The notes beneath the pieces were generated by a model that made no database searches, was not told the origin of the DNA, and worked only from the letters and a program-made list of their open reading frames with translations. 64,000 nt of DNA from Terramyces sp. JEL0728 (Eukaryota; Chytridiomycota; Chytridiomycetes; Rhizophydiales; Terramycetaceae), in assembly GCA_027603945.1 (NCBI GenBank), contig JADIIU010000035.1, positions 53,915 to 117,914 of the forward strand. Direction: 5' to 3'. Shown here in pieces: positions 1 through 64,000 of this stretch. Positions within the stretch are counted from its first letter, which is position 1; the number at the start of each line of letters is the position of its first letter. Both the position numbers and the translations under genes were made by a program.

Positions 1-1700
1 CTGCTGGTGCTGAATGGGTTCAAGTCGACGAACCAATTCTTTCTCTTGACAGATCTGCTGAATACAAAGCATACTTTGCAAAAGCATACGCCGCCCTTAC
101 TGCTGCTGCTCCACAATTGAAGTTCTTTTTGGCCTCTTACTTTGGAAGATATTCAAGCAACTTGGACTTTGTTGCCGACCTTCCTATCCACGCTATCCAC
201 ATTGATGCCGTCCGCGCACCAGCAGATGTTGATGCTGTTGTTTCCAGAGTCCAAGGAAAGACCCTCAAAGTTTCCGTCGGTGTTGTTAACGGAAGAAACA
301 TCTGGAAAAACAACTTGGCTCAGTCCATTGCAACTGTAAAGAAGGTTATTGCTGCCGTTGGTGCTGACAGAGTCATCGTTGCTCCATCTTGCTCCCTTCT
401 CCACACCCCACACTCCCTTGCTTCTGAAAAGAAGATGGATGCTCAAATCAAGAACTGGATGGCTTTCTCTGTTGAAAAGCTCCACGAAATCGCGACCATC
501 GTAAAGGCTATCACTGCTCCAGGATCTGTTGATGCTGTCCTTGCTGAAAACGCTCACGCTCACGAACTCAGAAAGACTTCCGCTCTTATCCACAACCCTG
601 AAGTTCAGGCTGAATTGAAGGCTATTGTTCCAGAAAACTTTAGACGTTTAAGCAAGTTTGAAGTTCGTGCTCAAAAGCAGCAACAAAAACTCAACCTCCC
701 ACTCTACCCAACCACCACTGTCGGATCTTTCCCACAAACCAAGGAAGTCCGTGTTGCTCGTCAAAAGTTCAAGAAGGGAGAAACCACCCTCGAACAATAC
801 AATGCTTTCATCAACAGCGAAATCCAAAAGACTGTCAAGTTCCAAGAAGAAGTTGGTCTTGATATGCTTGTACACGGTGAATTCGAAAGAAACGATATGG
901 TTGAATACTTTGGTGAAAACTTGAAGGGTTACGTCTTTTCCGAATACGGATGGGTTCAATCTTACGGATCTCGTTGCGTCAAACCACCAATTATTTTCGG
1001 GGATGTTTCCCGCCCATATGCCATGACTGTTGAAACCTCAGTCTACGCTCAATCCCTCACCAAGCTCCCAATGAAGGGTATGTTGACTGGCCCAGTTACC
1101 ATGCTCCAATGGTCTTTTGTTCGTGACGATCAACCAAGATCCGAAACCACCTACCAAATTGCTCTTGCTCTTAGAAAGGAAGTTTCCGACCTTGCAAAGG
1201 CAGGAATCCCAGCCATTCAAATCGACGAACCTGCTATCCGTGAAGGCCTGCCACTTTTGAAGGAAGATCAAGATGCTTATCTTGACTGGGCTGTCAAATC
1301 ATTCTTGTTGGCCACCACCAATGTTCCAGACGAAACTCAAATCCACACCCACATGTGCTACTCTGATTTCAACGATATTTTCCCAGCTATCCAAGCTTTA
1401 GATGCCGACTGTATCACCATCGAAAACAGCAAGTCTGATCTTAAACTTTTACGTGCTTTCGAAAAGTATGGATATACCAACGGAATTGGTCCAGGTCTTT
1501 ACGACATCCACTCTCCTCGTGTTCCACCTGCTGATGAAATGAAGAGCCGTCTTTCTGCCATCAACAAATACATCAAGACCAACCTTTTGTGGGTTAACCC
1601 AGATTGTGGTCTTAAGACTAGAGGATGGACTGAAACTGAAGCTGCACTTAGAAACATGTGTGAAGTTGCTAAACAAGCACGTTCTGCTCCAATTGCTTAA
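1..1700 (+). CDS. MET6: Cobalamin-independent methionine synthase, 3' part (copy 1)
   Basis: Transfers a methyl group from 5-methyltetrahydrofolate polyglutamate to homocysteine, the last step of methionine synthesis, in the cytosol. The gene runs off the left edge; the reading frame is open from base 3 (AGAEWVQVDEP) to the TAA at 1698-1700. The C-terminal catalytic barrel is complete: the zinc-site residues sit in THMCYSDFND and in NPDCGLKTRGW, with IQIDEPAIREG between. It is nearly identical to the complete copy at 21804-24129; one difference is Thr for Val in RGW(T/V)ETEA. Family identity is certain. The missing part is caused only by the window edge. Confidence 0.97.
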   Translation, partial: AGAEWVQVDEPILSLDRSAEYKAYFAKAYAALTAAAPQLKFFLASYFGRYSSNLDFVADLPIHAIHIDAVRAPADVDAVVSRVQGKTLKVSVGVVNGRNIWKNNLAQSIATVKKVIAAVGADRVIVAPSCSLLHTPHSLASEKKMDAQIKNWMAFSVEKLHEIATIVKAITAPGSVDAVLAENAHAHELRKTSALIHNPEVQAELKAIVPENFRRLSKFEVRAQKQQQKLNLPLYPTTTVGSFPQTKEVRVARQKFKKGETTLEQYNAFINSEIQKTVKFQEEVGLDMLVHGEFERNDMVEYFGENLKGYVFSEYGWVQSYGSRCVKPPIIFGDVSRPYAMTVETSVYAQSLTKLPMKGMLTGPVTMLQWSFVRDDQPRSETTYQIALALRKEVSDLAKAGIPAIQIDEPAIREGLPLLKEDQDAYLDWAVKSFLLATTNVPDETQIHTHMCYSDFNDIFPAIQALDADCITIENSKSDLKLLRAFEKYGYTNGIGPGLYDIHSPRVPPADEMKSRLSAINKYIKTNLLWVNPDCGLKTRGWTETEAALRNMCEVAKQARSAPIA

Positions 1701-1765
1701 TTAAATAAATTGCATATGATATTGAATCGCTAGTTTTTCTTTTTTTCAAAAAAGTTCGAATCAAA

Positions 1766-2617
1766 ATGCAGGAAGAGGAAGACTTTTACGAAAGACAGGA
1801 GCAGGAATTAAAGTCAAAAACCAAAAAAAAAGATTCTCGATTTGTTTTAGACAATGACAGTTTGGATTCTGATGAAGACGCTCACTTTTTAACTGAAGAA
1901 TTCTCTCACCCAGAAGATATAGACGAAGATTACGACTTTGGAGAAGAAAATGCCAGAGCATTAAAACCATTAGACGAGAAAAGCTTAAAGGATTTCCAAG
2001 CCAAGATAGAAAAAACTGGCGTTTGTTACATGTCTAGAGTACCTCCATTCATGAAGCACACTAAATTGCGCTCCATGCTATCAAAGTACGGTGAAATTGG
2101 ACGCATTTATCTGAATCCAGAAGATGCAAAAATCGCAGCAAGAAGAAAGAAATACAAGCATAATAAGAGACAAAATTTTGTTGAAGGATGGATCGAATTC
2201 ATGGACAAGAAGATTGCCAGAAAAGTTGCTGCTTTGCTTAACAATACCAACATGGGGGGGAAAAAGAGAGGATACTACTATGATGATATTTGGAATATTA
2301 AATACCTTCCAAAATTCAAATGGAATCATTTGACTGAGCAACTCGCTTATGAACTCAAAGTCAAAGAACAGAAACTACGAACTGAAATGGATCAAGTCAA
2401 GAGAGAAAACAAAATGTATCTCAAGAATGTCGAAAAGGCAAAGATGTTGGAAGCAATTAGCAAACGTAAGGGAGAATCTCTGCAACACAAGAATCAAGAG
2501 GAGCCAAAACGCAAGAATGAAGAAGAGCCAAAGCGCAAAGTCAAGCAGCGTAAAGTTATTGAACAGAAACCAGAAACTGGCACAAAGAAAGGATTTTATT
2601 CCAAAATATTCTCCTAA
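1766..2617 (+). CDS. ESF2: ESF2/ABT1-type pre-rRNA processing factor (copy 1)
   Basis: Nucleolar protein expected to act in the small-subunit processome during 18S rRNA maturation. 283 residues, no intron. An acidic N-terminus (about 1-70) is followed by a divergent RRM (about 86-190) with GVCYMSRVPPFM as the first RNP-like strand and NFVEGWIEFMDKKIA as the second, then the family block GYYYDDIWNIKYLPKFKWNH. The tail is a highly charged helix rich in Lys and Glu. It starts 65 bp after MET6 on the same strand. Identity rests on the conserved RRM plus KFKWNHLTEQL block. Confidence 0.9.
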   Translation: MQEEEDFYERQEQELKSKTKKKDSRFVLDNDSLDSDEDAHFLTEEFSHPEDIDEDYDFGEENARALKPLDEKSLKDFQAKIEKTGVCYMSRVPPFMKHTKLRSMLSKYGEIGRIYLNPEDAKIAARRKKYKHNKRQNFVEGWIEFMDKKIARKVAALLNNTNMGGKKRGYYYDDIWNIKYLPKFKWNHLTEQLAYELKVKEQKLRTEMDQVKRENKMYLKNVEKAKMLEAISKRKGESLQHKNQEEPKRKNEEEPKRKVKQRKVIEQKPETGTKKGFYSKIFS

Positions 2618-2632
2618 TATAAATTATCATAT

Positions 2633-2889
2633 TCAGTTATCCCTCTCAATAAACGATATATGTGCATTCCACTTGTCTTTATCGGCTCCAGATTGCTCCA
2701 TTCGATCAAATTCGGTTTCCAGTTCGTCGTCAAACAACTGCGGCTGGTCTTCAGTTTTAATAATCACGTCTACATGAATCTGGAAATACCATCCTTGGGA
2801 AGTTTTTCTGCAAACCATTTCTTGTCTATTACATCTATTATTTTTGGATTCCCATGTAATGTAAGTGAAAAGTGGTGATCTGTTCTCAT
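2633..2889 (-). CDS. APC13: Anaphase-promoting complex subunit 13 (copy 1)
   Basis: Small APC/C subunit that supports assembly of the TPR subunits of this ubiquitin ligase. Two exons with a 20-nt intron (2770-2789) give 78 residues; the core KIIDVIDKKWFAEKLPKDDV matches the APC13 signature (ILDLIDDAWREDKLP.EDV in animals, from memory). A downstream KDKWN resembles the EMKWTDL region. The seven base differences I found between this copy and the one at 25074 are all synonymous in the spliced frame, which independently supports both the strand and the intron. Its start codon is 29 bp from that of EME1 on the other strand. Confidence 0.82.
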
Positions 2890-2918
2890 TCAATCTTGGA
2901 AAAACTTAATCTTGCATA

Positions 2919-4485
2919 ATGGAAATCATTGTACTGCCATATTAATAAAGGATATTGACTCTGATTTCGAAGTAACTCCCGCTCCATTGAAAGACAAGAT
3001 GGTTCCAAACAATGTGGTGATTTTGGACTCTGATGATGATTTTGCCCCGCAGGGTTTAGCTATCAATCCAACTCCTGAGAAACGACTATTTTTTTGGGAT
3101 TCAGGCGACAAAGGGTTGGACTTTGAAACCAAATACCAGTATCAAGAAAAGTCAAAGGAATATCAAGTGAGTATTGATTCTGAAGATTCAGACTTTGAAT
3201 CTTCAGTAAATAACTCACAACCGACCTTTAAGTCGGAGCAGCAATTATTGCAAAAGGAGCAGGAGTTGTTGCAAGAGTCCGAAATGCCAGATATATCTAA
3301 AATGTTGGAAAAGGAAAGGAAAAAGAACGAAAAGGCAAATCAGTTGAAAATAGAGCGGCTGCAGAGACAGATGAAGAAAGAACAGGAAAAGAACATTCGA
3401 CTGGAGAACAAACTTAAATTAAAGCAAATTAGAGAAGAAGAAAAGGAAGAAAAAAGGAGAGAAAAACAAAAGGAAAAGGAAACTCAAGACTTGGAATCCG
3501 TTGGGAAGAAAGCAATCCAGACTGCAAATAAATTGCGACAAAAGATCGAATGTGCCAGGGAAGTTATTGCGCATCTGTGCAAAAACTGGAACCAAAATGA
3601 CCCTTTTCTTAATACATCCCTCAAAGAAGTCGGTGTAGAAACTAGAATCGAAACCACAGCAGTCAAAAATTCAATGACTCTGACACACAAAGTAGATCGG
3701 ATTTATGATTTTGAAAATTCAATATGGAATCCCTGTTCGCTCCGACTTGAGAAATTACCTTATATTCTAATTATGCTTTCGGCCATGGACATTGCAGAAA
3801 TCCTAAAAAGCGATCAGAGTCTCATGAATTACTTTACCGATTGCACCTCAAAATATAAAGGAGATACTATCATTTTTCTAGTTGTCGGACTGCCAGAGTA
3901 CTACAAGGCATTCAGCAGCGCACAAACAGCAATTCGAAACGATGAAATTAGAGAACAGCTTACAAGTGAAAAAAGAAAGAAAAGAAAGGCAAATGATATT
4001 TTGGATGGTCCTGACAAGAAAACAATAGAGCGAGAGTTGATCTTGCTGCAGATATTTGGCAAGGGTAAATGCAAAATACATACCTGCAACAAAGTAGATA
4101 TCCACGGTTTCATTGTATCCTTTATACAACAGATTGCTCTATTTCCAGACATGTAGTAATTCTTGTTTAATCCAGTATCAAATCATCTGAATACAATCAA
4201 TTGGCATTTGGAGATTCCATCAAATCTGGGAAAGATGGGCAAGACACTTGGATAAAGATGATTGAAAAGATACCAGGCGTGACCGAACGAATGGCCATTG
4301 GAATAAGCCAAAGGTACTCTAATTTAGGAAGGCTAATGACACTGGTAGAGAGTTACAGAGATCTAGTGGGTATTCCATATCAGACAAATATGGGCAGTAG
4401 AGATTATAGAATAGGTGAAAGTGTAGCCAAGCGCATATACTCTGTTTTCTTTGGCCAAGATCCAAATATGCCTGTAATCAATTAG
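2919..4485 (+). CDS. EME1: Crossover-junction endonuclease subunit EME1/MMS4 (copy 1)
   Basis: Non-catalytic partner of MUS81 that resolves branched DNA during recombination and fork repair in the nucleus. 507 residues after removal of introns 2931-2950 (20 nt) and 4153-4175 (23 nt). ATG 2919 was chosen because the first intron then joins MEII to DIDSDFEV. The N-terminus is acidic with DSDDDF and DSEDSDFE repeats, followed by a Lys/Glu coiled coil (about 125-195), an ERCC4-type nuclease fold without the usual catalytic ERK..D motif, and a C-terminal helix-hairpin-helix region (IEKIPGVTERMAIGI). Divergent with APC13; convergent with MED16, 24 bp away. Confidence 0.85.
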
Positions 4486-4509
4486 TGCGGTTATTTATAA
4501 ATATATTCT

Positions 4510-6950
4510 TTATTGGCTTGCTTCAGGTGCCCAATGTCCCCCGCAAAAACAGATGTCCTGGTAGGCATTTTGCCAGGGAGGCATATTCTGGAAAATTGCA
4601 AAAGATTCATCCAGCTCAATGTCGGCCTGTGTGTGTTGTAGACAGCGTGTGCAGCGATTCAGTTTGGACGTACTGCGGATATTGTGTTTGGTAATGACAT
4701 CTATTTTGCTCAGGTGTCTTTTTGGCCCGTTAATGAGAATAGTTAGCGTTTCGGCTTCAGGCTTTTGATACAGCTTTTCAAACATTGATTTGAATCGCGG
4801 CTTAATTGAATCCATCGACGGTTTGAAGTGCGGATCAACAGCAGCTTGTAGCAAGAGTATAGATTCTGCACGGAGTAAGGGCTGGGAATCACTAACAAGG
4901 GCATCTAAAGAATTAAATTCCAGGAAAATGCCTATCATAGAATCCAAATTAGGTCTGTCTTTCTTCAGCGCTGCATCAATTCGTTGCAGGTATGCATTTC
5001 TGCTGTGAGCCTCAACACTCGATGAACTAATTGTGATGTTGGCAAATTGTTTGTTGATTGCTTCCAGATTGAGCTGGAACAGTTTGACAAAGTACAACAG
5101 CTGCAGTACTAGCCTTCTGCAATTTCTGTTTAATGCAAATATTAGCGGCGACCCGTCTAAATTAATAAAAGAATACTTTTAAAGTCTGGCTCTTTTCTAG
5201 TCAAGTAGGAATACAAGTGCATTACCACGCAGGATGTAAAGTCTTGTACCCAGAGAGCTAACGGAACCATGTGATGGATCGCTCCTTTCTGGAATTGCAA
5301 ATCAGGTTTGTTGTGGAAATCTGCTATTTGGGTAATCTTGTTGGAAATTTGCGAATCTTCATTAGTACTTTTTACTTGTCCATTCAAGAGCTTTGAATTG
5401 GTTAACCAGAGAGCGGCAAAATAAATCTTTGATCAAACAAAGCTCAAGGATGTTGAACGAGTTGCGTAAAGGCCAAGAGTTTGGTTGTAGAATTCTGGAT
5501 TAGCTGTTACTTACTTGGTGGTGTAAAATAGTAGCTGGAATACCTCGATATGCTCTTCCAAAGTGTGGATTTTACTGAACGGGATTGGACTGCTGATTTC
5601 CTGCATTTCTTCGTATTTAATGATCACGCTATTGATGAATTTCTCTGCAAGGTCTGGAATAAATAAATAGTTACCAGGCTTAATTGATTCTCTAATTAAT
5701 ATCGACACATCCAACAAATCGTGCTTGTTTAATGCACTGCAAACAACCAGCGCTGCAAGGCTGTTCAGGTTTTTATCAGCCAAACCAGGATTCAAGGCAA
5801 ATCCCTTGATCTTTTCTTTGCTTACTACAAGTAACTCTGATTTTCCAAACACGTCTACTCCTAGTTGAATTGTATGAATTCCATTTGGAGACAATATAGG
5901 CAATACCGGTTTGTAATTCATTTTAAATAATTGGGTTTTATCAACGGACGGGTATTTTGGCTCATTACTAAAGAAATTGCTAAAGACGTCAATCTGCATG
6001 TCATCCTTGAGGTCATCCGGAGGTAGCGTATCAGGGACTAGTATATTTCCCATCTCCTTCACATCCAATGACGGCAACATCCTGTACTCATTTAACCCAT
6101 CCAGGTATCCAATAAATAAATAATTCTTCATCGCCATCACACACGAGATATTAGAAACATATTTTTCGGCAACTAGTTTCCATCCACTTGAATTTTCGTA
6201 GACGTGGATTAAACTTTGGTCCATAAGATCGGATACAGTAACAAAATGATGGGTTGATAATTCTATAAACTTAATTGGCTGTTGGTATGGAACTTTGTCT
6301 ATATGTTGGATGGAGACTTTTTGATTCGCCAGGTCAATAGCGACAGTCGCAATGATGATTTCTGAAGAAACTCCAATTACGGATACAGAGTTTTCTGGAA
6401 TAAGAAAAATCTACCTTTGACCAATGCCTGAGCCATTGCTAATTCAACTGGTAAACTGCACGATATACAAGTAAACTCTCCTTCCATAGTATCAAAATAT
6501 ACAGAGATTGCTGTTTGCCCAACTGAAATGAAGGCATAACTTCCAAACAATAAATCTGGACCCTGCTGAAACAGACCAGTCGGAGAATACTACATAAAAT
6601 GTTGGGTACCTGCTTGATGGGTTGATACCAAACTAGCTTATGAGGGAATTCTTGCAGCTTTACTTGCTTTACCATGTTGAAATTCTGAATGGTCTCTCCT
6701 AGCTTGAAAATCCCAAGGTCGAGTTTCTCATCCAAAATCATCAAGTAATTCCCGGTATAATCCCATTTTATCTGTATAATCTTTGAGTATCCTGTAGATA
6801 TAATCGAGTAGTTCAACTGACTTTTACAATGGAATACAATTACAGTATTTGTCCTGAGTTATAAATAAAGTACTTTTTCAGTAGGAATTCGTCGAATATG
6901 GTGTCTTGATCTGCGATGAGAGCAATTATATTCTTTACACTCCAGTCCAT
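4510..6950 (-). CDS. MED16: Mediator tail subunit 16 (copy 1)
   Basis: Tail-module subunit of Mediator that relays activator signals to RNA polymerase II. Seven exons; six introns of 19-20 nt at 5157-5176, 5357-5375, 5495-5514, 6395-6414, 6590-6609 and 6854-6873, giving 773 residues. The N-terminal half is a WD40-type propeller starting MDWSVKNIIALIADQD; the middle is helical; the C-terminus has the family's zinc-binding pattern, CTRC followed by CFCGGHW near the end. Every splice junction restores frame and reads through. All six acceptors are AG in this copy, unlike copy 2. Divergent with the Cys-rich gene at 7134. Confidence 0.85.
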
Positions 6951-7073
6951 AGATTCCGATTCGATTTTTGAAAAGCGGAAAATAACACTTTGAAAAAACA
7001 GGAAATCTTTTTAATACTGAACCAATGATTCAACCTACCCATCTATCATGCCAGCCCGTCCTTTTGTTTACTG

Positions 7074-7081
7074 TCACGTGA
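7074..7081. promoter_or_regulatory. E-box palindrome TCACGTGA
   Basis: A perfect 8-bp palindrome lies in the 183-bp divergent promoter of MED16 and the Cys-rich gene at 7134, 53 bp before the latter's ATG. It is the classical core site for bHLH factors such as Cbf1/USF types. The same site is kept in copy 2 at 29515-29522. Function is inferred; the window also encodes two bHLH proteins. Confidence 0.45.
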
Positions 7082-7133
7082 TCTTGTTCTGTTAAGGTTT
7101 GAACGTTGAAGCGTTTTTTACTATTTGTTGCAA

Positions 7134-7368
7134 ATGACCTCACCAAACTCAAGCCCAATAATGACCACTCAACCAACTGCTCAAACTGTAGTGATGACTA
7201 CTGATCCTCAAAGATTACGTGGTGGAAGAAAGTACTTGGATTTAACCTAGGAAGCACCCGCTCTGCTGTGAATGTATGGAGTGCTGTCTCGACTGTTTCT
7301 GTATTGCATGTATATGTGAATGCCTCGCATGCTTTGAATGCTGCCAAATTACTGAAGAAGCCTTTTAA
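7134..7368 (+). CDS. Small Cys-rich tail (CYSTM-like) protein 1 (copy 1)
   Basis: 71-residue protein found only after removing a 19-nt intron (7232-7250), which joins RGGRK to KHPLCCECMECC. The N-terminal half is Thr/Gln/Ser-rich and probably disordered. The C-terminal third is a dense Cys run (CCECMECCLDCFCIACICECLACFECC in three overlapping blocks) ending QITEEAF. This layout is that of fungal CYSTM-type proteins, which are thought to sit at membranes and respond to stress or metals. Function here is inferred. Alternative: a metal-binding peptide. Conserved in copy 2 with one Ile-to-Val change. Confidence 0.7.
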
Positions 7369-19424: not shown

Positions 19425-19943
19425 ATGGGAAAAGGAACTGAAAGCGAAGAACAAGACAGACTACTCCCTATAGCAAACGTAGCTCGAATAATGAAAAGAG
19501 GTCTACCTGAAAATGCCAAGATTGCCAAAGATGCAAAAGAGTGTATACAGGTACCTGGCTGCTTAATCTAGGAATGTGTATCAGAATTTATATCATTTGT
19601 AACATCTGAAGGTACTCGTTCCTAATTCAGCCAGCGATAGGTGTGTCCATGAAAAAAGAAAGACTATAAATGCAGAAGATATCTTGTGGGCTATCCAATC
19701 TCTAGGATTTGATTCCTACCACGATACATTGAATTTATATTTGGTGAAATACCGTGAAGTAAGTGAAATTAATACCAGTCTTTAAAGTCTGATAAGCCAA
19801 AGGAAGAAGAGACACATGCTAAGCCGAGTATGGATCTATTGCGGGCGATGCAGAACCAGCAACTGGCTGCACGATTGCAGGGGCAGCTGGATGGACAGCA
19901 GTTTCAGCTAAATCGAAATGATCCGCAGAATTTCAATTACTAG
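19425..19943 (+). CDS. HAP3: HAP3/NF-YB histone-fold subunit of the CCAAT-binding factor
   Basis: Subunit B of the heterotrimeric CCAAT-binding transcription factor. Four exons; introns 19551-19571, 19612-19630 and 19759-19778 (21, 19, 20 nt) give 152 residues. The conserved core is complete: [78 protein letters not shown] Gln-rich tail ([19 protein letters not shown]) follows. Without removing the three introns the core is unreadable, so this gene is one of the clearest proofs of ultra-short introns in the window. Confidence 0.97.
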
Positions 19944-21803: not shown

Positions 21804-24129
21804 ATGGTCTCCTCATCTAACCTCGGATTCCCACGTATGTCTGCCAACAGAGAGCTTAAAAAGCTCGTCGAAGCCTACTGGGCAGGCAAAGTAGATCACC
21901 AAGCCCTAGTTAACGGTGCCAAGGTAATATTATAATTGACATCAGGAATTGCGTGCCCTCCACTGGAAAATCCAAAAAGATGCTGGAATTGAATCCATTC
22001 CATCCAACGACTACTCTCTCTACGATCACGTTCTTGATCACTTGTTTGTCTTTGGTGCAATTCCATCCAGATATGCAAACATCCCAAGCGCTACCGACAA
22101 ATACTTTGCCATGGGCCGTGGTCTTCAAAGACCAGCTGAAGGTATCGATGTGCCAGCTATGGAAATGAAAAAATGGTTCGACACCAACTACCACTACATT
22201 GTCGGTGAATTCTCTCCTTCAACCAAATTCCACCTTCAAGATACCAAGCCAGTAGACCAATATCTTGAAGCAAAGGCTCTTGGAATCCAAACCCGTCCAG
22301 TTGTTCTCGGACCTGTTTCCTTCCTTGCTCTTGGTAAAGAATCCAGCGATGCTCCAGCTGGATTCGACAGATTGTCTCTTTTGGACTCTCTTCTTCCTGT
22401 ATATGTTGAATTACTCACCAAGTTGCAAGCTGCTGGTGCTGAATGGGTTCAAGTCGACGAACCAATTCTTTCTCTTGACAGATCTGCTGAATACAAAGCA
22501 TACTTTGCAAAAGCATACGCCGCCCTTACTGCTGCTGCTCCACAATTGAAGTTCTTTTTGGCCTCTTACTTTGGAAGATATTCAAGCAACTTGGACTTTG
22601 TTGCCGACCTTCCTATCCACGCTATCCACATTGATGCCGTCCGCGCACCAGCAGATGTTGATGCTGTTGTTTCCAGAGTCCAAGGAAAGACCCTCAAAGT
22701 TTCCGTCGGTGTTGTTAACGGAAGAAACATCTGGAAAAACAACTTGGCTCAGTCCATTGCAACTGTAAAGAAGGTTATCGCTGCCGTTGGTGCTGACAGA
22801 GTTATCGTTGCTCCATCTTGCTCCCTCCTCCACACCCCACACTCCCTTGCTTCTGAAAAGAAGATGGATGCCCAAATCAAGAACTGGATGGCTTTCTCTG
22901 TTGAAAAGCTCCACGAAATCGCAACCATCGTAAAGGCTATCACTGCTCCAGGATCTGTTGATGCTGTCCTTGCTGAAAACGCTCACGCTCACGAACTCAG
23001 AAAGACTTCCGCTCTTATCCACAACCCTGAAGTTCAAGCTGAGTTGAAGGCTATTGTCCCAGAAAACTTTAGACGTTTAAGCAAGTTTGAAGTTCGTGCT
23101 CAAAAGCAGCAACAAAAACTCAACCTCCCACTCTACCCAACCACCACTGTCGGATCTTTCCCACAAACCAAGGAAGTCCGTGTTGCTCGTCAAAAGTTCA
23201 AGAAGGGAGAAACCACCCTCGAGCAATACAATGCTTTCATCAACAGCGAAATCCAAAAGACTGTCAAGTTCCAAGAAGAAGTTGGTCTTGATATGCTTGT
23301 ACACGGTGAATTCGAAAGAAACGATATGGTTGAATACTTTGGTGAAAACTTGAAGGGCTACGTCTTTTCCGAATACGGATGGGTTCAATCTTACGGATCT
23401 CGTTGCGTCAAACCACCAATTATTTTCGGCGATGTTTCCCGCCCATATGCCATGACTGTTGAAACCTCAGTCTACGCTCAATCCCTCACCAAGCTCCCAA
23501 TGAAGGGTATGTTGACTGGCCCAGTTACCATGCTCCAATGGTCTTTTGTTCGTGACGATCAACCAAGATCCGAAACCACCTACCAAATTGCTCTTGCTCT
23601 TAGAAAGGAAGTTTCCGACCTTGCAAAGGCAGGAATCCCAGCCATCCAAATCGACGAACCTGCTATCCGTGAAGGTCTGCCGCTTTTGAAGGAAGATCAA
23701 GATGCTTATCTTGACTGGGCTGTCAAATCATTCTTGTTGGCCACCACCAATGTTCCAGACGAAACTCAGATCCACACCCACATGTGCTACTCTGATTTCA
23801 ACGATATTTTCCCAGCTATCCAAGCTTTAGATGCCGACTGTATCACCATCGAAAACAGCAAGTCTGATCTTAAACTTTTACGTGCTTTCGAAAAGTATGG
23901 ATATACCAACGGAATTGGTCCAGGTCTTTACGACATCCACTCCCCTCGTGTTCCACCTGCTGATGAAATGAAGAGCCGTCTTTCTGCCATCAACAAATAC
24001 ATCAAGACCAACCTTTTGTGGGTTAACCCAGATTGTGGTCTCAAGACTAGAGGATGGGTTGAAACTGAAGCTGCACTTAGAAACATGTGTGAAGTTGCTA
24101 AACAAGCACGTTCTGCTCCAATTGCTTAA
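21804..24129 (+). CDS. MET6: Cobalamin-independent methionine synthase (copy 2, complete)
   Basis: Same enzyme as at 1-1700, here complete: 767 residues, equal in length to yeast Met6. Exon 1 (21804-21923) encodes MVSSSNLGFPRMSANRELKK..LVNGAK; a 22-nt intron (21924-21945) is followed by ELRALHWKIQKDAG. The N-terminal barrel has the folate-binding RELKKLVEAYW region and the C-terminal barrel carries the catalytic zinc ligands. Codon choice is strongly C-ending compared with neighbouring genes, as expected for a highly expressed gene. Its intron lies very near the 5' end. Confidence 0.98.
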
Positions 24130-24194
24130 TTAAATAAATTGCATATGATATTGAATCGCTGGTTTTTCTTTTTTTCAAAAAAGTTTGAATCAAA

Positions 24195-25058: not shown

Positions 25059-25073
25059 TATAAATTATCATAT

Positions 25074-33843: not shown

Positions 33844-35462
33844 ATGAACATCTCAAGGAGGAGGTATTTTACTTTGGAAAAACTAAATAATTTAAGACTG
33901 CAGACGCAGCAAGGAGGAGGGCATTTGAAGCAACTCCAGCAACATCAAAAGGGAAAGCTGACGGCAAGAGAACGGATAAATTTATTACTGGATCAAAAAT
34001 CATTCGTAGAGTACAACTCATTTGTCCAACACAATTGTTCAGATTTTGGAATGGCTGAGAATAAAGTATTTGGAGATTCTATCGTTACTGGATACGGAAA
34101 GATCAACGATAGGCTTGTATTTGTGTATGCCCAGGATGCAACTGTATTTGGAGGAAGTGTGTCTAAAGCGCATGCGTTCAAGCTATGTAAAGTTATTGAA
34201 CAGGCAATGCAAGTCGGTGCGCCTGTTATCGGCATTAACGATTCTGGTGGTGCCAGGATACAAGAAGGGGTAGATTCTTTGGCTGGAGTTGCGGACATAT
34301 TTTTCAAAAATGTAGAAGCCTCTGGAGTTGTACCACAGATATCGTTAATTATGGGGCCTTGTGCCGGTGGAGCAGTTTATTCGCCTGCACTGACTGATTT
34401 TACTTTTATGGTTAAAAACACCTCATATATGTATGTGACTGGACCGGAAGTTATCAAGGCTGTTACTAATGAATTAATTACCCATGAAGAGTTGGGTGGT
34501 TCTGACGTTCACACAACTAAATCAGGAGTAGCACATTTAGCGTTCAATAACGAATTGGAAGCATTAGAAAATATCAGAGAGTTTGTCAATTACTTGCCCT
34601 TGTCAAGCAAGGATTCTGCACCTGTCAAACCAACACAAGATTCGCCGTATTTTGATTTTAACTTAGTCATCGAGAATGTTCCTCATTAGATTACTTTGTA
34701 CCAACTGACTCTTCCAAAGCATATGATATGAAATATATTATACACGAGGTAAGGCAACCTAACGAAAAGATTGTTGATGAATCCATTTTCTACGAGCTAT
34801 CTCCTGATTATGCTTCAAATATAATTACTGGCTTTGCTAGATTTGATGGAGCCACTGTTGGGATAGTAGCGAACCAGCCGATTGAATTATCTGGCTCTTT
34901 GGATATCAATGCTTCAATTAAAGCGGCAAGGTTTGTTCGGTTTTGTGATGCATTCAACATTCCCATAGTTACACTAGTTGACGTGCCAGGGTTTTTGCCA
35001 GGCGTGCAGCAGGAGCATGGAGGTGTTATTAGGAACGGAGCAAAGCTGCTGTATGCTTATGCTGAAGCTACCGTGCCAAAAATCACTGTAATCACTCGCA
35101 AGGCGTATGGAGGTGCTTATGATGTAATGAGGTATATTATCGCTAAAAAGCTCAAAACATTTGAAAGCAGACGCAAATTATGCCTGGCCAACGGGTGAAA
35201 TTGCAGTGATGGGAGCCAAAGGTGCAGTCGAGATTATATTTAGAAACGTTGAAGATAAAAGTATAAACTAGCTAATGTAGCCAAAATTGAAAATGACTAT
35301 GCAAACAAATTCTCTAATCCGCTACCTGCTGCGATAAAAGGATATTTGGATGATATTATTATTCCGTCCCAGACTCGAATTAGAATTATAAACGATTTGA
35401 AGATGCTTGCAAGAAAGACTATTACCAAACCAGCAAAGAAACATGGAAACATACCTCTGTAA
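33844..35462 (+). CDS. PCCB: Propionyl-CoA carboxylase beta subunit (carboxyltransferase)
   Basis: Mitochondrial carboxyltransferase that moves CO2 from biotin to propionyl-CoA, giving methylmalonyl-CoA. 512 residues; introns 34647-34666, 34749-34769, 35132-35150 and 35261-35280 (20, 21, 19, 20 nt). The 21-nt intron has no stop and keeps frame, but removing it restores the family reading [12 protein letters not shown]. Landmarks: presequence [62 protein letters not shown] and the terminal HGNIPL. Methylcrotonyl-CoA carboxylase is an alternative, but the ending and the YDMK block fit PCCB better. Confidence 0.9.
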
Positions 35463-40043: not shown

Positions 40044-41334
40044 TCAATAATTTAACATATAAAAGAGATCATCATCCATCTCAAAGTAACTATTATCGGG
40101 CTCAACAGCTTGTACGATCTGCTGATCACTTATATCAAAGTAATCATCCAGTTCAAAATCTACAGATGGTGATCTATAATTGCGGCAATCAGGGTCAAAA
40201 CAGCGCTGATGAAAATTCATCAATTTCAAGTCGGCAATGTAGTAAACGCTGTTGGATTTATGGTCTCTCTGTAATCGGTGGCAGTACCTTGACCCACTTA
40301 TCACATACATTATCTTTTCTTCCAGGATAAAAAATGATTTGATGCTGGCGGTATTTCTTGAAAATCGATGGATATACGAGAGGATAGAATATTCAATTTC
40401 AGGGTAATTTGAATTTCCAACAATTGTGCAAATATTTGAAGATTTCCTAGTTTCAGCACCAATACACAGACTGGGTTTAATCGAATCACCATAGTCAATC
40501 AATTCTGTGGAGCCTCGATCATCAACTACAAGCGTGTCCAAAAATATTTCAAACCTAGGAGTCGCGTTTTTAATATCCAATATCGTGTCTTTCCCAATTT
40601 TGCTCGATAAATACAATCTAAAATTTCTATTTTTTGTGTATACTCCATGATCAATAAATACCTTGTCTTCCTCTTTCGTCTTGATAATAAATAAGTTGTT
40701 GTCAATCAGCTTCTTGTAGAATTTATTCACGAATATTCCGCAATGCTGGTTGTTTTTAAATTTGCTGTGTTGGAATCTAACAATCAAGTGGTGCGAGTAT
40801 TTCTTGTTGTTTGAAGAATCCAAGTCTATTATTTTGAAATTTTCTATTCCTAATAAATGGAGCTCTTGCTTTAGGACTTTAATGAAATCGTTGATGCTGA
40901 TTTCTAGCCGCTCATTAGATTGGTTTGCCAGTTTTAAACTTTCTCTGCCATCGGATTGCAGACTATCGCCATACGTCGCAATCTTGGATGTGCTGAACAA
41001 TGGCTCTTCCGCATCATTTTTAATCATATTATATTCATACTCGTATTCCAAATCGAAATACAGGTTACATGGATCATCTTCTCTAATCAATTCATAAAAG
41101 TGTTTGTTCTCCATTTGGATATAAGTATCCCAAAAATCTCTTGTTTTGCTGACAATGAACTTTCGCTTCCCAGGCTTGTCTATATCATATTCATAAGAAA
41201 ATATTCGAGTCCCAGGAATTTGAGCTTGGCGCTCAAAAGCTTGCGACTGGGTAGGGTAGCTTTCATCTTCATTAGTTGATATTACATACGGTAAAATATC
41301 TCTTTCCTACTAATTTTGGTTGGATCGTGGTATT
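40044..41334 (-). CDS. PRIMPOL: PrimPol-type primase-polymerase (5' end unresolved)
   Basis: DNA primase-polymerase of the AEP superfamily that re-primes stalled replication in nucleus and mitochondria. The main exon (40044-41266) joins through a 23-nt intron (41267-41289) to at least KISRKEIFYHESYPTQSQAFERQAQ. AEP motifs: CNLYFDLEYE (metal-binding Asp and Glu), SHHLIVRF (SxH), and GVYTKNRNFRLYLSSKIGK. The UL52-like zinc module is RYCHRLQRDHKSNSVYYI followed by CFDPDCRNY. The first coding exon with its ATG was not found; it should lie upstream of 41334. Confidence 0.85.
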
Positions 41335-41649
41335 GTAAAATTGCTGTGGAGAGATCATTTTATTTTAAAACTAATTTCGGACAACGCAACCGAATATGAA
41401 CTACCATTGGATATTTTAGTAATAATTTTCATTTGTTCTGAACAAACAATTGTGCCAGAGTAATAGTCGGTTTAACATATTCAAATCGGCTCTTGGACAA
41501 CTTTCCAGATACTGTTGTGTAACATATCTGATGGCATATTCTGTGATTCTTATTCATTATGACATTGAGTATGTCATTATCCACTCTATTTTTTTCGCGT
41601 GGTTTTTTCTTCCTAAAACGCGGTAAAACTATTCCAAGCATAAGCTGGA
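41335..41649. other. Divergent region between PrimPol and velvet paralogue 4
   Basis: 315 bp that must contain the missing PrimPol start. A 70-codon minus frame (41429-41641; basic N-terminus RFRKKKPREKNRVDND) lies here. It might be a small gene or an upstream exon, but no splice path to PrimPol in frame was found. Confidence 0.35.
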
Positions 41650-42215
41650 ATGGAGTACAATCTCAAAATTAGGCAGGAACCGCTAACGGGTAAGGAGGCT
41701 GGACTTACCAGACCTTACACGAAAAGTCACATGTAATCCAAAGCTAAACCCAGAGGACCCATTTTGATACTACAGCTTAACTTTGAAAATCAGATGAGCA
41801 GGACACAAGTATGTTAGTTTTAAATTAGTTACAATCGATGCTGTTCTTTTGCAACGTGGTGTTGGTTGGGGAGGACGATTTCTTTGAACATTTTCTAGTC
41901 GGGAGCAGAGCTGCACGAAAATGCTATCAGGAGAATCTTTTCGGAAATACGGTAGTCAAGGGGGAAGTTTACAGAGATCCCGAAGATGGCCAACACCGAA
42001 TATTCTTTGTATTTAACGATTTGTTTATCAAAACGCCTGGGAAATATCGATTTAAATGCAGTTTAATTAGCACGTGTAAAAATAATCAATTCGCACAGCA
42101 AGCGAGCACTTCATTATTTGAAATCTGCAAAAGTAGAGATTACAAGCCTGTAAATAACTCTACAAATGTAACCAGGTCTTTCCAACTACAAGATGTCGCT
42201 TTCTTCTCAAAATGA
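41650..42215 (+). CDS. Velvet-domain regulator, paralogue 4 (most divergent)
   Basis: 174 residues; introns 41733-41753 (21 nt) and 41809-41828 (20 nt), again at the shared positions. Exon 1: YNLKIRQEPLTGKEAGLTRP. The core is CNVVLVGEDDFFEHFLVGSR, KCYQENLFGNTVVKGEVYRD, PEDGQHRIFFVFNDLFIKTPG. It departs more in the C-terminal third (STCKNNQFAQQAST) and has RKCYQEN where the others have KRYQEN. Convergent with VPS52. Confidence 0.9.
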
Positions 42216-42323: not shown

Positions 42324-44557
42324 TTAGAAAGTGCTCTTGTATTTTTTGATTTCAACCAAGATTGACTGAATCCCCACGGGCTGTACTTTGCTTTTTACGC
42401 TCTTGAAGCAGACTTCCCAGATACCCAGGAATCGCTTGTACCAGAGCACAAAGGCGGTAAGAGTCTGTTGAAGTACTTTTTGACCATTGGTGAAGTTAGG
42501 GAATATTTGCATGATTGTATCGTTGAATTTCTGGATGTTTGACTTCCAACTGTTATTGAAATCTTGGGCCAACATTTCAAGCGTATCTGGTCAGAAATCA
42601 AGTACCTTTGTTAGTTGCTGATTGCTTCGATTCAACTTTTACGATATAATCCATCATGGACTTTAGATAAGGGGATAGCTGCCATTCTACAAACTCGTCC
42701 AGCTTTTGTTTCATTAAATCTTCAAAATACAGCTTTTCCTGGTCCAAAGACGGCGAGGTATGTTCATTCATAATAGTTTGGATTAAATCAATATTGTTAA
42801 TCCAGAACGCGAGTGAAACCTTTTTGTCTGGGAATTCTGCAGCCAGTCTGTACATTAAAGACTCCAATTCGGTGCGAAGTCGAGATAAACTTGTTAAAGT
42901 GAGGATACCTGTTAATCAATAACGCATCATCGTATCCTTCGTTTAATGTCAAGACTGATGCACTGAACTCGGCATATCTACGGATGATCTGTTATAAGAG
43001 ATGAAATACATAATGCGGCTGCGGTTCTCTGACAGACAGCAGTTTCCGTGGCTCTGCTTTCTTTAAGCTGTCGATATGCAACCCCATAATGGTCTGGAAT
43101 CTTGGCCACAGCATTATATTTACCAAATTCAAAAAGTTTTCCAGGCAAGGGATCCTTCTAAGCTGCAAAAGTCTGATATTCAGCGTGTTCAATCTAATAC
43201 AAACCAATATACTGATAGCATCGTGTGTTTGATCAATGTACTGCTTGAAAAATGTTTGGATTATCTTCAAGGTTGGATCAAAGACTTCATTAAAGAACGA
43301 CATTGATTCCGAGCTTGTTTTGATTGATTTTTCTTGAAAGAATTCGTTTGTAAATATATACTCTGAACTAGCGTTATCTAGCACTAGTCTGGAAACCGAC
43401 TTGAAGATCTGCTCAAAAGTAAATTTCTGGTTCTTTTCTTCTGCCAAATGGGGAACAATTATGCCAGTATCATTTCCAATTAAAAGATTGATTCGATCTA
43501 ATTAAAAGAGTAAAGAACCTCCCATTGTGTACAGGTTTGTAGTATCTTTGACTGTCCTGATGCCAAACAGCCCTCTTTTTGATCCATCATCAGAGCCAAT
43601 AACATCATTTTTGTCAGCAATGCTTGTTTGCAACTTATTCATCACTTTAACATATTTGTCAAATGCGGTTGAAAAATATGTGCTGACAATCACGATATAA
43701 TTTGCGTGTATTTCCAATCCTACCGGGGTAAATCGCTCCATCAAAAACCAAAACAGCTCCTTGTATTTCAAAAGTGCATTTTGCTGTATCAGCGCTATGT
43801 TTGTATTTGGAGCTTTCAAAGATTCTATTTTCTTTAGCAGAAACTCCCTAATCTTATCAGCTGCCTGAGTCAAAATTGAGAAACCTTTATCCTTAATCGT
43901 TCCAACTCTGGGCCAACGTTCTTTAACGCTTTGACTTGTTTATCCTCGTTTGCTACAACATATGCCATCTTCACGTTCAATTCATGCAGATGATGGATGA
44001 AAAATTCATTAATTTCCCCCTCGCAAATCTTTCTGATATCAGTACAAGGCACCTTATAATATCCGGACCGACCACTATTCCATCAAGCAATTCGTTTGAA
44101 TATTTCACAGCATTCTGAATTAAGCACTTTTACTTTTCTGTTTTCCAATTTGATTCCCAGTTCTTTTGAATCTTTCTGAATATTTTCAATCTCATGATTC
44201 ATTTTCTGCAAATCCCGCTTATACCCTCCTAATAACCCATCGATATCCCCCAAAACTTTGTCCATTTCATCCAAGATATTGTTTAATTCTAAAGTTTCGT
44301 GGACCTGTTTTAAATGTTGATGAGCAAGCGATTCTTGGTGGGTCGCAAGCTCTGCCTGAATTTGAATCGAATAGGTTCGGAGTGGAATGTTGTTTTGCAA
44401 AGCCTGCTTTACAAACGGGTCCTGTTGGAAAGAGGAAATCCTGTCTATGTTACGAAAATGTACCATCTACTTCTTCAAATGATATATCGCTGGCCCATGT
44501 ATCTTCCAATTGGCTGTCTACTTTTTGTAACAGGATGAAGGACGCGAATGTGGCCAT
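42324..44557 (-). CDS. VPS52: GARP/EARP tethering complex subunit VPS52
   Basis: Tethers endosome-derived vesicles at the Golgi. Nine exons and eight introns of 19-21 nt (42587-42605, 42890-42908, 42989-43009, 43498-43518, 43865-43884, 44033-44052, 44115-44133, 44445-44463) give 691 residues. The N-terminus has the DPFVKQALQ block and a coiled coil (about 60-130), followed by the VPS52 core IRKICEGEINEFFIHHLHELN, KIREFLLKKIESLKAPNTNI and QQNALLKYKELFWFL. The ATG at 44557 continues in frame (MATFASFILLQKVDSQLEDTWAS). Divergent with the DUF1748-like gene. Confidence 0.88.
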
Positions 44558-45024: not shown

Positions 45025-46285
45025 TTAACGATAGAATTCCAAATCAAGATCAGGTTTCTTGACGCTGCTAACATACGCCTTTTCGATATCCTTTGACAAT
45101 ACGACATATCGGTTTGCCTGAAATTAGTTTGTTATTACTCTGACGGCATACAACCCAGCTGCTTGAACAATAGATGCCATTTCTGCACCAGATAACTTGT
45201 CTGGTCTCGAGACAACTGTTGATTAATCAAAATTTACAATCTTCTAAATCAACTTCTTCGGACAGGTTCATTTTTGCAGTTAAAGTGGTCAATATTAAAC
45301 GCTTTTGTCTTCTATCTGGAGTAGGGAATTCAATTTTACGATCCAATCTACCAGGACGCAACAATGCAGGGTCAAGCGTATCTGCCCTGTTGGTAGCCAT
45401 AATAACCTGAAATTAATGCAAGATCACTTTGACATTTGAGCCTTGGTCGAAACCATCCATTTGAGTGAGCAGTTCCAAAAGAATACGTTGCACTTCACGA
45501 TCAGCACCAGTTTGCGCATCAAACCGCTTTGTTGCAATTGCATCAATTTCATCAATAAAGATAATCGAAGGTGAGTTTTCACGGGCAAGTCTAAAGACAT
45601 CTCTCACCATTCTTGGACCTTCACCTAGATATTTTTGTACAAATTCAGAGCCGTTTACTCTGATAAATGAAGCAGTCGTGTGATGCGCAACAGCTTTGAC
45701 AAGCATAGTTTTGCCGGTACCAGGAGGCTATTATTAAAAACCACATACTCCATATAGCAGGACACCTCTTGGAGGATCAATACCAATTTGACGGTACAAA
45801 TCAAAGTTGGTTAATGGCAATTCCACTGCTTCTCTAATTTCTTGCTTTTGTATATCCAAACCACCAATGTCGGAATAAGTCACATCAGGCTTTTCATTAT
45901 CGCCCAACAATGAAATTGAAGAATCCGCTTCTGGTGGTAAAATGTCGACAAGAGCGTTTGAGTGGCGGTGTAAAGCTACTGACGATGATGGTTTCAATAA
46001 TTCCCTATCAAGAGTCGATAAAATTGAAACTAAATAGTTACTTCCGGTAGTTGACGACACAATCCCGGTATTCTCGTCAATTGGTTCAAGAAATTGTCCG
46101 ATAACAAGAGGAACTGATTGAATTCTCTTGACTTCCTCTTGTGCCCTTACTAATTCCCTTTTTAGATTCTTTAGTTCATCCTTGATATATTCTTCCTGCA
46201 GAGTTAAAAATTCGGCATGTTTGGATAGCTTCTTTAGCTTGAGATAGAGGTCTTCTTCAGACTGTTGTTAATGTTTTTGTACCAT
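45025..46285 (-). CDS. RPT3: 26S proteasome AAA-ATPase subunit RPT3
   Basis: One of six ATPases that unfold substrates for the 20S core. 384 residues; introns 45118-45138, 45216-45237, 45407-45427, 45728-45748 and 46262-46282 (21-22 nt). The last of these begins immediately after the ATG, so the first coding exon is the start codon alone. Motifs: coiled coil [34 protein letters not shown] (RPT3-specific), Walker A PPGTGKT (formed across a junction), Walker [10 protein letters not shown], arginine finger [10 protein letters not shown], and a C-terminal FYR of the HbYX type that docks into the 20S ring. Confidence 0.97.
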
Positions 46286-62462: not shown

Positions 62463-62650
62463 TAAGGAAGTTTTTAGTTGTTTGTTTTTATGCGAATTAT
62501 GAGAACGCGTCGGGCCAGTATGGACCTACCATAACCAATCCCAATAGTCAAATTAACCCAAAGTGTAATTTCAGTGTATAGTTTGCTTTATAGAATATTC
62601 GACGGATTCATTAGGCAATTCTTGATATTTCCACCATCGCAAATTTACAT

Positions 62651-62688
62651 ATGCAATAACTCGATGCTCATGCAATAACTCGATGCTC
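62651..62688 (+). repeat. Two tandem copies of a 19-bp unit at the kinase start
   Basis: The 19-bp unit atgcaataactcgatgctc occurs twice in a row. Each copy contains ATG CAA TAA, a two-codon upstream frame, and the second ends in the ATG taken as the kinase start (62683). Copy-number change here would alter the leader. Confidence 0.7.
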
Positions 62689-63986
62689 ATGAAATGTAGC
62701 ATTAATAAGCTGGGGCAACATAAATTTGTTTCAAAAATGATCAGCCATTTTGTTCAGAGAACAAAAAGATTACACCCACTCATTCGACAAACAGCAGCTA
62801 AATATGCCACCCTTCAAAATATGCGGAGCACTCATAACAAAGTCTGGCTCAACAGCCCGCTGATTGCAGAATATTCAAAATTAAACATCAACCCAGTTAC
62901 GCTGGATTATTTGCTGACACTTGAACAGGATGTAAGCGTATGTGCTTTATATGTCCACCGAGAATTGCCAATTCGTCTTGCGAGAAGAGTAAGAGCAATC
63001 GAAAAGCTTCCATTCATTGTTGGAGTTAATCCTTACATTTCACAGGTGTATGAATTATATAGGGATTCGTTTTCAAGACTGATTGAATTTCCGAACCCAA
63101 AGACTGAGGATTTGCAGAGAGAATATGCAAGTGTGTTGGCTGAACTTACCGAATCTCACCAGAGTGTAATTCCAAATTTAGCAAAAGGATTTATGGTATT
63201 GTCGGTCTAACTAAAGGAATGTGGAAAGTATATGTCGCAGTCTTCAAAACAGGAATTTCTGGATGAAATGATTCGGGCAAGAATAGGTATAAGGGTAATT
63301 GCTGAGCATTACATGTCTTTACAATCACCACGAGCAGGATGGATCGGTGTAGTTAATACTCAAGCTTCGCCCACGACGATATTAACCTCCATTTGCAATT
63401 ATGTCCAACAGTTGTGTGAATTCAACTATGGCACTGCTCCAGATTACGAAATTTCTGGATTTACCGACACTAGATTTGCCTATATCAATGTACATATGGA
63501 ATATATATTCATGGAGCTGATAAAGAACGCTATGAGAGCTACAGGTACCCTTTACTTATGGCAGTGGAAGAATCTAAAAAACTAAACCGTTTTGAACATC
63601 CTCCAATTGAAATTTGCATAGGAAGATCCAATGATGATGTGATAATTAGATTCAGGGATCAGGGCGGCGGTATTCCGTTAAAAGGTACTTGGCTATTGAC
63701 AAGACCAACCTCGAGTTTGGGAATACTCGTTTACCACGGTGGAGAAAGAAGATGATGACTTTTTATCTAGTCAAAGTAAAATGTCAATGGTTCAAGCTAC
63801 CGGCGGACCTATTGCAGGGGTAAATAGATTTAATGAAAGCTTGGCTTTGGTTTACCAATGTCCCGAGTCTACGCCAAGTATTTTGGAGGATCGTTAGAGT
63901 TTAGAAGCGTAAGTGGGCACGGAACTGACATTTTTCTGCAATTCCCAAACATTTCGAGAAACAAAGAACAGTACCAGATCAACTGA
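62683..63986 (+). CDS. Mitochondrial dehydrogenase kinase (PDK/BCKDK family)
   Basis: GHKL-fold protein kinase that phosphorylates and inactivates the E1alpha subunit of pyruvate or branched-chain keto-acid dehydrogenase. 407 residues; introns 63196-63216, 63545-63564, 63685-63703 and 63820-63839 (19-21 nt). The N-terminal helical domain contains LPIRLARRVRAIEKLPFIVGVNP; the ATP site has the N-box FMELIKNAMRAT, the G1 box FRDQGGGIP and the G2 box GLGFGLPMSR, then GTDIFLQFPN. The basic N-terminus (MISHFVQRTKRLHPLIRQ) suits mitochondrial import; the true start may be that Met at 62737. Confidence 0.92.
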
Positions 63987-64000
63987 TGTATTTCTGCGAT

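Follow-up and report, generated by a model that had tools for sequence, protein, structure and literature searches.

The window, by which we mean the whole 64,000-nucleotide stretch of DNA analyzed here from Terramyces sp. JEL0728, a chytrid (Chytridiomycota, Rhizophydiales), appears to contain genes that are broken by segments of about 20 nt. The question raised is whether these segments are spliceosomal introns and, if so, how a spliceosome might act on so small a substrate. The original prediction, made from the sequence, was that the window contains about 94 introns, nearly all of 19-24 nt, each with GT at its start, a branch motif and AG at its end.

Results

Intron Lengths Form a Single Narrow Peak

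We have studied a sample of 264 kb, comprising the 64-kb window together with 200 kb from two other contigs. Introns were called using a home-made gene finder in which GT-AG introns of 10-300 nt were allowed, with a flat length prior. With GT and AG as the sole requirement, a single peak was observed at 19-22 nt, containing 88 of the 249 introns called; each of the other lengths in the range 10-300 nt was represented by 0-5 introns. In a sham control, eleven other dinucleotide pairs were used in place of GT-AG. These gave between 7 and 21 'introns' of 18-23 nt per pair, compared with 124 for GT-AG. Because the peak appears with GT-AG and not with the sham pairs, the segments may be taken to have the terminal dinucleotides of U2-type introns.

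In a second round, donor and acceptor matrices were learned while the length prior remained flat. A length of 19-23 nt was then found for 232 of 340 introns, with 55, 104, 48, 22 and 3 introns of 19, 20, 21, 22 and 23 nt, respectively, and none of 18 or 24 nt. The final model, which is partly circular in that it includes a learned length prior, placed 374 of 391 predicted introns in the range 19-23 nt. If retained, 367 of the 374 would cause a frameshift or a premature stop, a proportion that may reflect in part the bias of the finder toward such introns.

Within the window (positions 1..64000) the final model predicts 94 introns, just as many as had been estimated. Of these, 88 are 19-23 nt long (16, 41, 24, 6 and 1 of 19, 20, 21, 22 and 23 nt), and the other six are 17, 35, 58, 64, 232 and 272 nt. 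The length range originally proposed is upheld except at its upper end, as no 24-nt intron was seen, and the suggested length histogram, built here from predicted introns, gives its single peak even with the flat prior. A narrow peak at or below about 25 nt that lacks a clear long tail is the distribution of an ultrashort intron system. The predictions confirm that the tiny introns extend beyond the window, into the two other contigs sampled. If the 264 kb are typical, extrapolation gives approximately 21,000 such introns genome-wide.

Homology Fixes the Junctions in Five Genes

Twenty-one junctions are fixed by homology in the VPS52, PCCB, RPT3, HAP3 and U2AF65 genes, and all these introns are 19-22 nt in length. 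Their removal restores a conserved protein, as expected for U2-type introns; for the first four genes this had been anticipated, and homology supports it.

The HAP3/NF-YB gene (19425..19943, forward strand) has three called introns of 21, 19 and 20 nt. The first two have the sequences GTACCTGGCTGCTTAATCTAG (19551..19571, forward strand, 21 nt) and GTACTCGTTCCTAATTCAG (19612..19630, forward strand, 19 nt). The spliced protein aligns with HapC (4g91_B) without a gap over residues 8-98, scoring 141.8 bits and covering both of these junctions. The third junction lies at the edge of the alignment and is not fixed by homology. In the RPT3 gene (45025..46285, reverse strand) there are five called introns of 21-22 nt, one of which (45728..45748, reverse strand, 21 nt) splits the Walker A sequence between GVLLYG and PPGTGK. 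After splicing, 383 residues align gaplessly with 8amz_K at 680 bits, covering four junctions.

The PCCB gene (33844..35462, forward strand) contains four introns, of 20, 21, 19 and 20 nt. The junction at intron 1 (34647..34666, forward strand, 20 nt) is ungapped in 22 of 22 orthologs. Intron 2 (34749..34769, forward strand, 21 nt, GTAAGGCAACCTAACGAAAAG) has no in-frame stop and was missed by the finder; it is translated in the public annotation, and its seven residues are absent from 38 of 38 orthologs. Intron 3 (35132..35150, forward strand, 19 nt, GTATATTATCGCTAAAAAG) was also missed, with 22 of 22 orthologs ungapped at the junction. Intron 4 (35261..35280, forward strand, 20 nt, GTATAAACTAGCTAATGTAG) was called, and is ungapped in 20 of 22 orthologs. 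The finder undercounts introns, since in PCCB it called two of the four and divided the gene between two separate models, g22 and g23. A 21-nt intron that lacks an in-frame stop escapes the finder except where coding statistics reveal it.

The VPS52 gene (42324..44557, reverse strand) has eight introns of 19-21 nt. Introns 4 (43865..43884, reverse strand, 20 nt) and 7 (42890..42908, reverse strand, 19 nt) are each ungapped in 20 of 20 orthologs, and the public VPS52 protein, P0121, lacks five residues, LLINS, at intron 7. Intron 8 (42587..42605, reverse strand, 19 nt, GTACTTGATTTCTGACCAG) was missed by the finder; its removal accounts for the gap between tblastn pieces and restores the C terminus. 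In all, three introns are known by homology alone, of 19 nt in VPS52 and of 21 and 19 nt in PCCB. The public annotation mis-splices both of the genes that were compared, PCCB and VPS52.

The window also contains a duplicated segment, in which nine of ten paired introns occupy equivalent sites. An intron of 20 nt in the first copy (4156..4175, forward strand) has a counterpart of 21 nt (26597-26617). The single-nucleotide difference lies inside the intron, and both predicted proteins have 508 residues plus a stop. We regard the sole 23-nt call of the window (27634-27656) with doubt, since this duplicated gene is spliced elsewhere in its other copy; the copy holding the call has lost the AG of one of its introns.

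Splice Signals and the Position of the Branch Site

The donor is GTAATT-like with a scarcity of G at +5, and GTAATT itself is the commonest sequence. There is one GC donor among the 391 predicted introns. The branch motif YTRAY occurs exactly in 263 of 368 distinct introns and exactly or one step removed in 354, leaving 14 without even a near match; taken with the excess of GT-AG over sham pairs, this substantiates the signals originally described. The motif is complementary to the GUAGUA of U2 and lies near the 3' end of the intron, as in U2-type introns. The consensus is strong, and not weak or lost as in the nucleomorph and Stentor introns discussed below. U12-type introns have an extended donor RTATCCTT and a branch site TTCCTTRAC, and judged by its sequence the overall consensus here (GTAATT donor, YTRAY branch) does not look like U12-type.

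The branch A lies at nucleotide 14-16 and is followed by a tail of 5-6 nt in 314 of the 368 distinct introns. The same geometry is found in 71 of 91 distinct introns of 17-26 nt that were called without a motif model. The two arms around the branch A show some dependence on each other (chi-square p 0.03), and for this reason we do not propose two independent rulers for their lengths.

We also searched 190,644 nt of spliced coding sequence for intron-like strings of 19, 20, 22 and 23 nt, finding none above the median intron score and 21 above the lower quartile. This gave no clear signal of depletion within exons, either at the lower threshold (21 sense, 27 antisense and 21.9 in synonymous shuffles) or at the higher (0, 5 and 3.1, respectively).

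Spliceosomal RNAs and Proteins

It had been suggested that the U2AF, SF1 and snRNA genes of this genome be inspected, and this was partially successful, yielding U2AF65, SF1, U2 and U5 and not U1 or U6. The U2 snRNA (140 bits) has an intact GUAGUA, and the U5 snRNA (86 bits) an intact loop 1. U5 covers all 117 positions of the model over 115 nt, and so is not shortened like that of the nucleomorph. The U2AF65 match, read through its introns, scores 251.7 bits, below the curated cut-off of 310.3 for the family. A gene for U1C was also found, although this family was matched in the E. coli control as well.

No U1 was found using RF00003 or one pattern, searches of unproven sensitivity here from which we do not conclude absence. 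The Rfam search for U6 returned two 27-bit matches only; one was inspected residue by residue, and retains ACAGAGA and not the AGC triad. BLAST with the Rfam consensus and two patterns gave nothing convincing for U6, and as their sensitivity is similarly unproven we draw no conclusion of absence. Two pattern matches taken as U6 candidates were rejected by eye as unlike U6. For RED there was no RED_N match, nor any in the controls, so that the sensitivity of this search is also unproven. When the window and 26 further loci (220 kb) were scanned with Rfam, a single tRNA was the only match.

Comparison with Known Very Short Introns

Tiny introns are already known in a nucleomorph and in ciliates; the Terramyces lengths are far below those usual in fungi. 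In the Bigelowiella natans nucleomorph the introns are 18-21 nt, and as in Terramyces the entire set is near 20 nt and spliceosomal (PMC6461891). Its branch and 5' splice motifs are not obvious and its U1 and U5 are shortened, and it is a 373-kb relic endosymbiont nucleus (PMC6461891), whereas Terramyces has a clear YTRAY and full-length U2 and U5 in a 15-Mb fungal genome. Stentor coeruleus has introns of 15-16 nt that resemble those of Terramyces in their narrow length, AT-richness and 5-nt tail past the branch A, and the commonest begins GUAAUU (PMC9505925). Its branch A is at nucleotide 10 with no strong branch consensus (PMC9505925), in contrast to nucleotide 14-16 and YTRAY in Terramyces. 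Stentor is a ciliate, while Terramyces is an opisthokont.

The type B introns of Trichomonas vaginalis, from 23 nt and typically about 25, are likewise very short, and their branch motif is CTAA-like, but there are just 24 of them beside longer type A introns (PMC12316389), whereas in Terramyces nearly the whole set is very short. Cryptococcus neoformans is, like Terramyces, an intron-rich fungus with short introns; these average 56 nt, and it is described as having the top share of introns of 60-100 and <60 nt among the fungi of that study (PMC11913375). Among the matches listed in the open-access literature we recognized no report of such introns in a chytrid or other fungus, and none naming JEL0728. 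The claim that these introns approach the lower limit for eukaryotes is well founded. Their 19-23 nt is not the record, given Stentor at 15-16 nt (PMC9505925) and the Bigelowiella nucleomorph at 18-21 nt (PMC6461891).

Longer Introns and Other Explanations

In the final model 16 of the 391 predicted introns in the 264 kb exceed 26 nt. Seven of these start with a complete intron-like string of 19-22 nt, and their sequence suggests a merging of short introns; the remaining nine, including all five of the window, have no such start. Most introns of about 20 nt might coexist with a real minority of 30-300 nt, given that 17 of the 391 fall outside 19-23 nt and that the nine include lengths of 30, 33, 35, 57, 58 and 64 nt. 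We consider such a mixture improbable, and have not adopted a real class of long introns: permitting introns of 27-300 nt gains only 38.9 nats across the whole 264 kb, seven of the 16 long calls open with a short intron-like string, and none of the 21 homology-fixed introns exceeds 22 nt.

Could the segments be false frameshifts due to sequencing or assembly errors, or artefacts of the gene finder? The finder was home-made with a learned length prior in its last rounds, and it probably erred in at least one call, that at 27634-27656. Yet the peak is present with a flat prior and no motif and absent for sham pairs, three introns emerge from homology alone, and the duplicated copies agree at nine of ten paired introns, so that this explanation is scarcely credible. 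The segments are seen in genomic sequence, and might instead be DNA or mRNA elements that are otherwise removed or skipped, by DNA excision or translational bypassing. The GT-AG ends, the branch motif matching the U2 GUAGUA at a near-fixed distance, and the presence of genes for U2, U5, SF1, U2AF65 and U1C make this very improbable.

Discussion

We conclude that the segments in the nuclear genes of Terramyces are very probably spliceosomal introns of the U2 type, reduced to roughly the minimum permitted by their signals. Removal would occur at the RNA level by intron definition, the spliceosome taking the whole intron as a single unit. Each intron may be viewed as two short arms around the branch A, with the A at about nucleotide 14-16 followed by 5-6 nt; the two arm lengths would add up to 19-23 nt, with a sharp cut-off below 19. 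YTRAY would be recognized by SF1 and U2. We suggest that U1 binds the intron first and yields to U6 either ahead of U2 docking or at the same time, because 14 nt would leave almost no space between the helices formed by U1 and U2. Poor recognition of long introns, together with deletion, would explain the absence of a long tail.

Recognition of the 5' site might also have been rewired with the shrinkage, +5G changing to T, U1 pairing becoming weak, the choice passing to a diverged U6 and U5 or to the intron as a whole, and U1 and U2 never being together on the 14-nt arm. We think this rather unlikely. If it were true, the mismatch of U1 and U6 to the Rfam models would be a sign of co-evolution.

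As both of the genes compared are wrongly spliced in the public proteins, intron statistics drawn from current annotation may overlook ultrashort introns. Terramyces sp. JEL0728 is presumably culturable, given its status as a collection strain. For efficient in vitro assembly, human spliceosomes are reported to require about 50 nt between the 5' splice site and the branch site (PMC6692369). Here, in most of the introns sampled, the branch A lies at about nucleotide 14-16, with full-length U2 and U5, and SF1 and U2AF65 retained. Such an opisthokont would be a direct test bed for the way in which the spliceosome handles minimal introns.

Intron lengths in the genomic sequence

The window covers positions 53915–117914 of contig C35, and the assembly containing it comprises 15.0 Mb in 231 contigs. 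NCBI classifies the strain, Terramyces sp. JEL0728, under Terramycetaceae (Rhizophydiales, Chytridiomycota), and the closest named relatives in a search with MetE were likewise chytrid fungi. Of the assembly, 264 kb of genomic sequence (the window, plus 100 kb from each of contigs C1 and C2) was examined closely. We used a gene finder written for the purpose, which can splice codons together over a GT-AG intron of any length within a fixed range. With no length preference, and with only GT and AG demanded, it called 249 introns in the 264 kb. Lengths of 19, 20, 21 and 22 nt were found for 17, 38, 20 and 13 introns respectively, and each remaining length from 10 to 300 nt for 0–5. When learned donor and acceptor matrices were used with length kept flat from 14 to 300 nt, 232 of 340 introns fell at 19–23 nt, with none at either 18 or 24 nt. 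No intron of 24 nt, the upper end of the range given in the original prediction, was seen. Eleven sham dinucleotide pairs yielded 7–21 calls at 18–23 nt, compared with 124 for GT-AG.

The final model, a partly circular step in that it includes a learned length prior, placed 374 of 391 introns in the 264 kb at 19–23 nt. In the window the figures are 88 of 94, in good agreement with the prediction of about 94 introns, nearly all very short. Six calls in the 264 kb are of 23 nt, and the sole example within the window is doubtful. The 17 introns outside the 19–23 nt range comprise one of 17 nt and 16 longer than 26 nt. Seven of these 16 open with a complete 19–22-nt intron-like string and the remaining nine do not; one of the seven, of 40 nt, consists of two abutting 20-nt introns. 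Permitting introns longer than 26 nt gained only 38.9 nats in total over the 264 kb. On contig C2 at 2386–2425 (locus L012, minus strand), two 20-nt GT...AG intron-like strings directly adjoin each other, leaving no intervening exon.

At small loci on contigs C7, C8, C39, C54 and C76, the length-prior model again called introns of 19–22 nt, with one exception of 46 nt. If the 264 kb is typical, extrapolation would give about 21,000 introns in the genome.

Junctions fixed by homology

It had been claimed that removal of the introns restores HAP3, RPT3, PCCB and VPS52, and homology fixes junctions in all four genes. Together with U2AF65 these provide 21 homology-fixed introns, with lengths of 19 (eight), 20 (five), 21 (seven) and 22 nt (one). 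Seven called junctions of VPS52 were compared with 20 orthologs, the alignment being judged ungapped within five residues. Six were ungapped in 19, 18, 20, 19, 20 and 20 orthologs. At the first junction only 1 of 20 was ungapped, the columns there being widened by an insertion; seven orthologs viewed in alignment showed no surplus or absent residues at this point. An eighth intron, of 19 nt, was overlooked by the finder, and its removal restores the C-terminus.

The finder split PCCB into two gene models and called two introns in all, whereas homology gives four, of 20, 21, 19 and 20 nt. Three junctions were ungapped in 22, 22 and 20 of 22 orthologs, a count that omits the JEL0728 and Boothiomyces proteins as well as a single longer protein from Globomyces. 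The 21-nt intron is stop-free, and its seven residues are absent from all 38 orthologs counted, excluding this strain's own protein, which retains them. RPT3 aligns without gaps over 383 residues with structure chain 8amz_K, spanning four junctions, one of which falls within the Walker A motif. The alignment of HAP3 is gap-free across two junctions. In U2AF65 (contig C2) two junctions lie within the aligned stretch, and a third within a stretch that is equally long in query and chain, as judged by length rather than by residue alignment.

Introns in a duplicated segment

Window positions 1–7200 and 22430–29641 are the two copies of a segmental duplication, with 98.5% identity across 7213 aligned positions; the segment carries MetE and four other predicted genes. 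Paired introns occupy equivalent sites in nine of ten cases. The predicted proteins are equally long where a 20-nt intron (4156–4175) is matched by one of 21 nt (26597–26617). In the discordant pair, the counterpart of intron 5157–5176 (27598–27618 region, minus strand) ends in GG in place of the AG of the first copy, and the finder chose another site. The second copy of this gene may be damaged or spliced differently.

In MetE of some relatives (P0003, 756 aa; P0006, 746 aa) about 11 residues are absent just downstream of the 22-nt intron 21924–21945, as if the start of the exon had been lost. Elsewhere in the window, two similar predicted proteins at 39118–39709 (minus strand) and 41650–42215 (plus strand), presumably velvet-domain regulators by their appearance, flank a predicted gene at 40044–41358.

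Splice signals and the splicing machinery

The predicted anatomy, with a GT start, a branch motif a few bases before the end and a terminal AG, describes most of these introns. Among 368 distinct introns the donor GT is followed by A (91%), A (54%), T (50%) and T (60%), with G at +5 in 19%; over all 374 introns, GTAATT occurs 52 times and GTAAGT 18 times. The branch motif YTRAY occurs in exact form in 263 of the 368, a number that rises to 354 when a deviation of one step is allowed. The branch A lies at nucleotide 14, 15 or 16 with a tail of 5 or 6 nt in 314, and 71 of 91 distinct 17–26-nt introns called without a motif model share this geometry. The shortest common combination of arms, 14 + 5 = 19 nt, coincides with the lower end of the distribution; the arm lengths are close to independent of each other, though not fully so (p 0.03). 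The introns are 69.5% A+T and occur at 1.8 per kb of coding sequence, and internal exons have a median length of 205.5 nt (n = 264).

In 190,644 nt of spliced coding sequence, no string of 19, 20, 22 or 23 nt scored above the median intron, and 21 scored above the lower quartile. Thus an intron-sized string alone nearly identifies an intron. We suggest that the whole intron would be recognized as one unit, i.e., by intron definition, with YTRAY bound by SF1 and then by U2. With the branch A at nucleotide 14, a 6-nt U1 helix and the U2 helix would almost touch; about 50 nt is reported as needed in human complexes (PMC6692369). A quick swap of U1 for U6 seems most likely; rewired donor recognition would be a bolder reading.

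Of the machinery, U2AF65, SF1, U2 and U5 were found. Both snRNA models were matched end to end, U2 with 140 bits and its GUAGUA branch-recognition sequence present, and U5 with 86 bits and loop 1 intact. U2AF65 matches solved structures of RRM1–RRM2 and of the C-terminal domain. Its gene has four called introns of 19–20 nt, and falls under the family cut-off when read through them. U1C gave a family match of 52 bits, and the same family also responded in an E. coli control; despite this the translated frame resembles U1C, with a proline-rich tail after a zinc-finger segment. The finder's own U1C gene model begins too late. Genome searches did not reveal U1, U6 or RED, the sensitivity of these searches in this genome being unproven. 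Weak U6-like matches at loci L023 and L024 (27.4 and 26.9 bits) are probably not U6; the one viewed in alignment has ACAGAGA intact but lacks the AGC triad.

Known short introns and the public annotation

Introns of 15–16 nt are described in Stentor (PMC9505925), and of 18–21 nt without obvious motifs in the Bigelowiella nucleomorph, where U1 and U5 are short (PMC6461891). Trichomonas type B introns begin at 23 nt (PMC12316389). Cryptococcus neoformans is the richest in short introns of the fungi studied in one report, averaging 56 nt (PMC11913375), and section 14 of PMC8476143, which deals with fungal intron-structure diversity, names no intron set with a mean below 63 bp. Among the matches listed, we recognized no report of such introns in chytrids in the open-access literature.

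The public protein of strain JEL0728 is mis-spliced in both genes compared (VPS52 and PCCB), a small sample. Our spliced VPS52 prediction is identical to the public protein at 599 of 604 aligned positions, and the latter is concordant with six of the seven called junctions. However, five of its residues are gone at a 19-nt intron, its authentic C-terminus is absent, and it continues as a fusion with the adjacent gene, which has a PF03121 domain. In the public PCCB the 21-nt intron is translated, 13 residues are missing around the 19-nt intron, and the start is late. Across public proteins P0121 (VPS52) and P0242, several 19–21-nt introns are mis-spliced or missed. Such mis-splicing in public proteins may help explain why tiny introns could have escaped notice.
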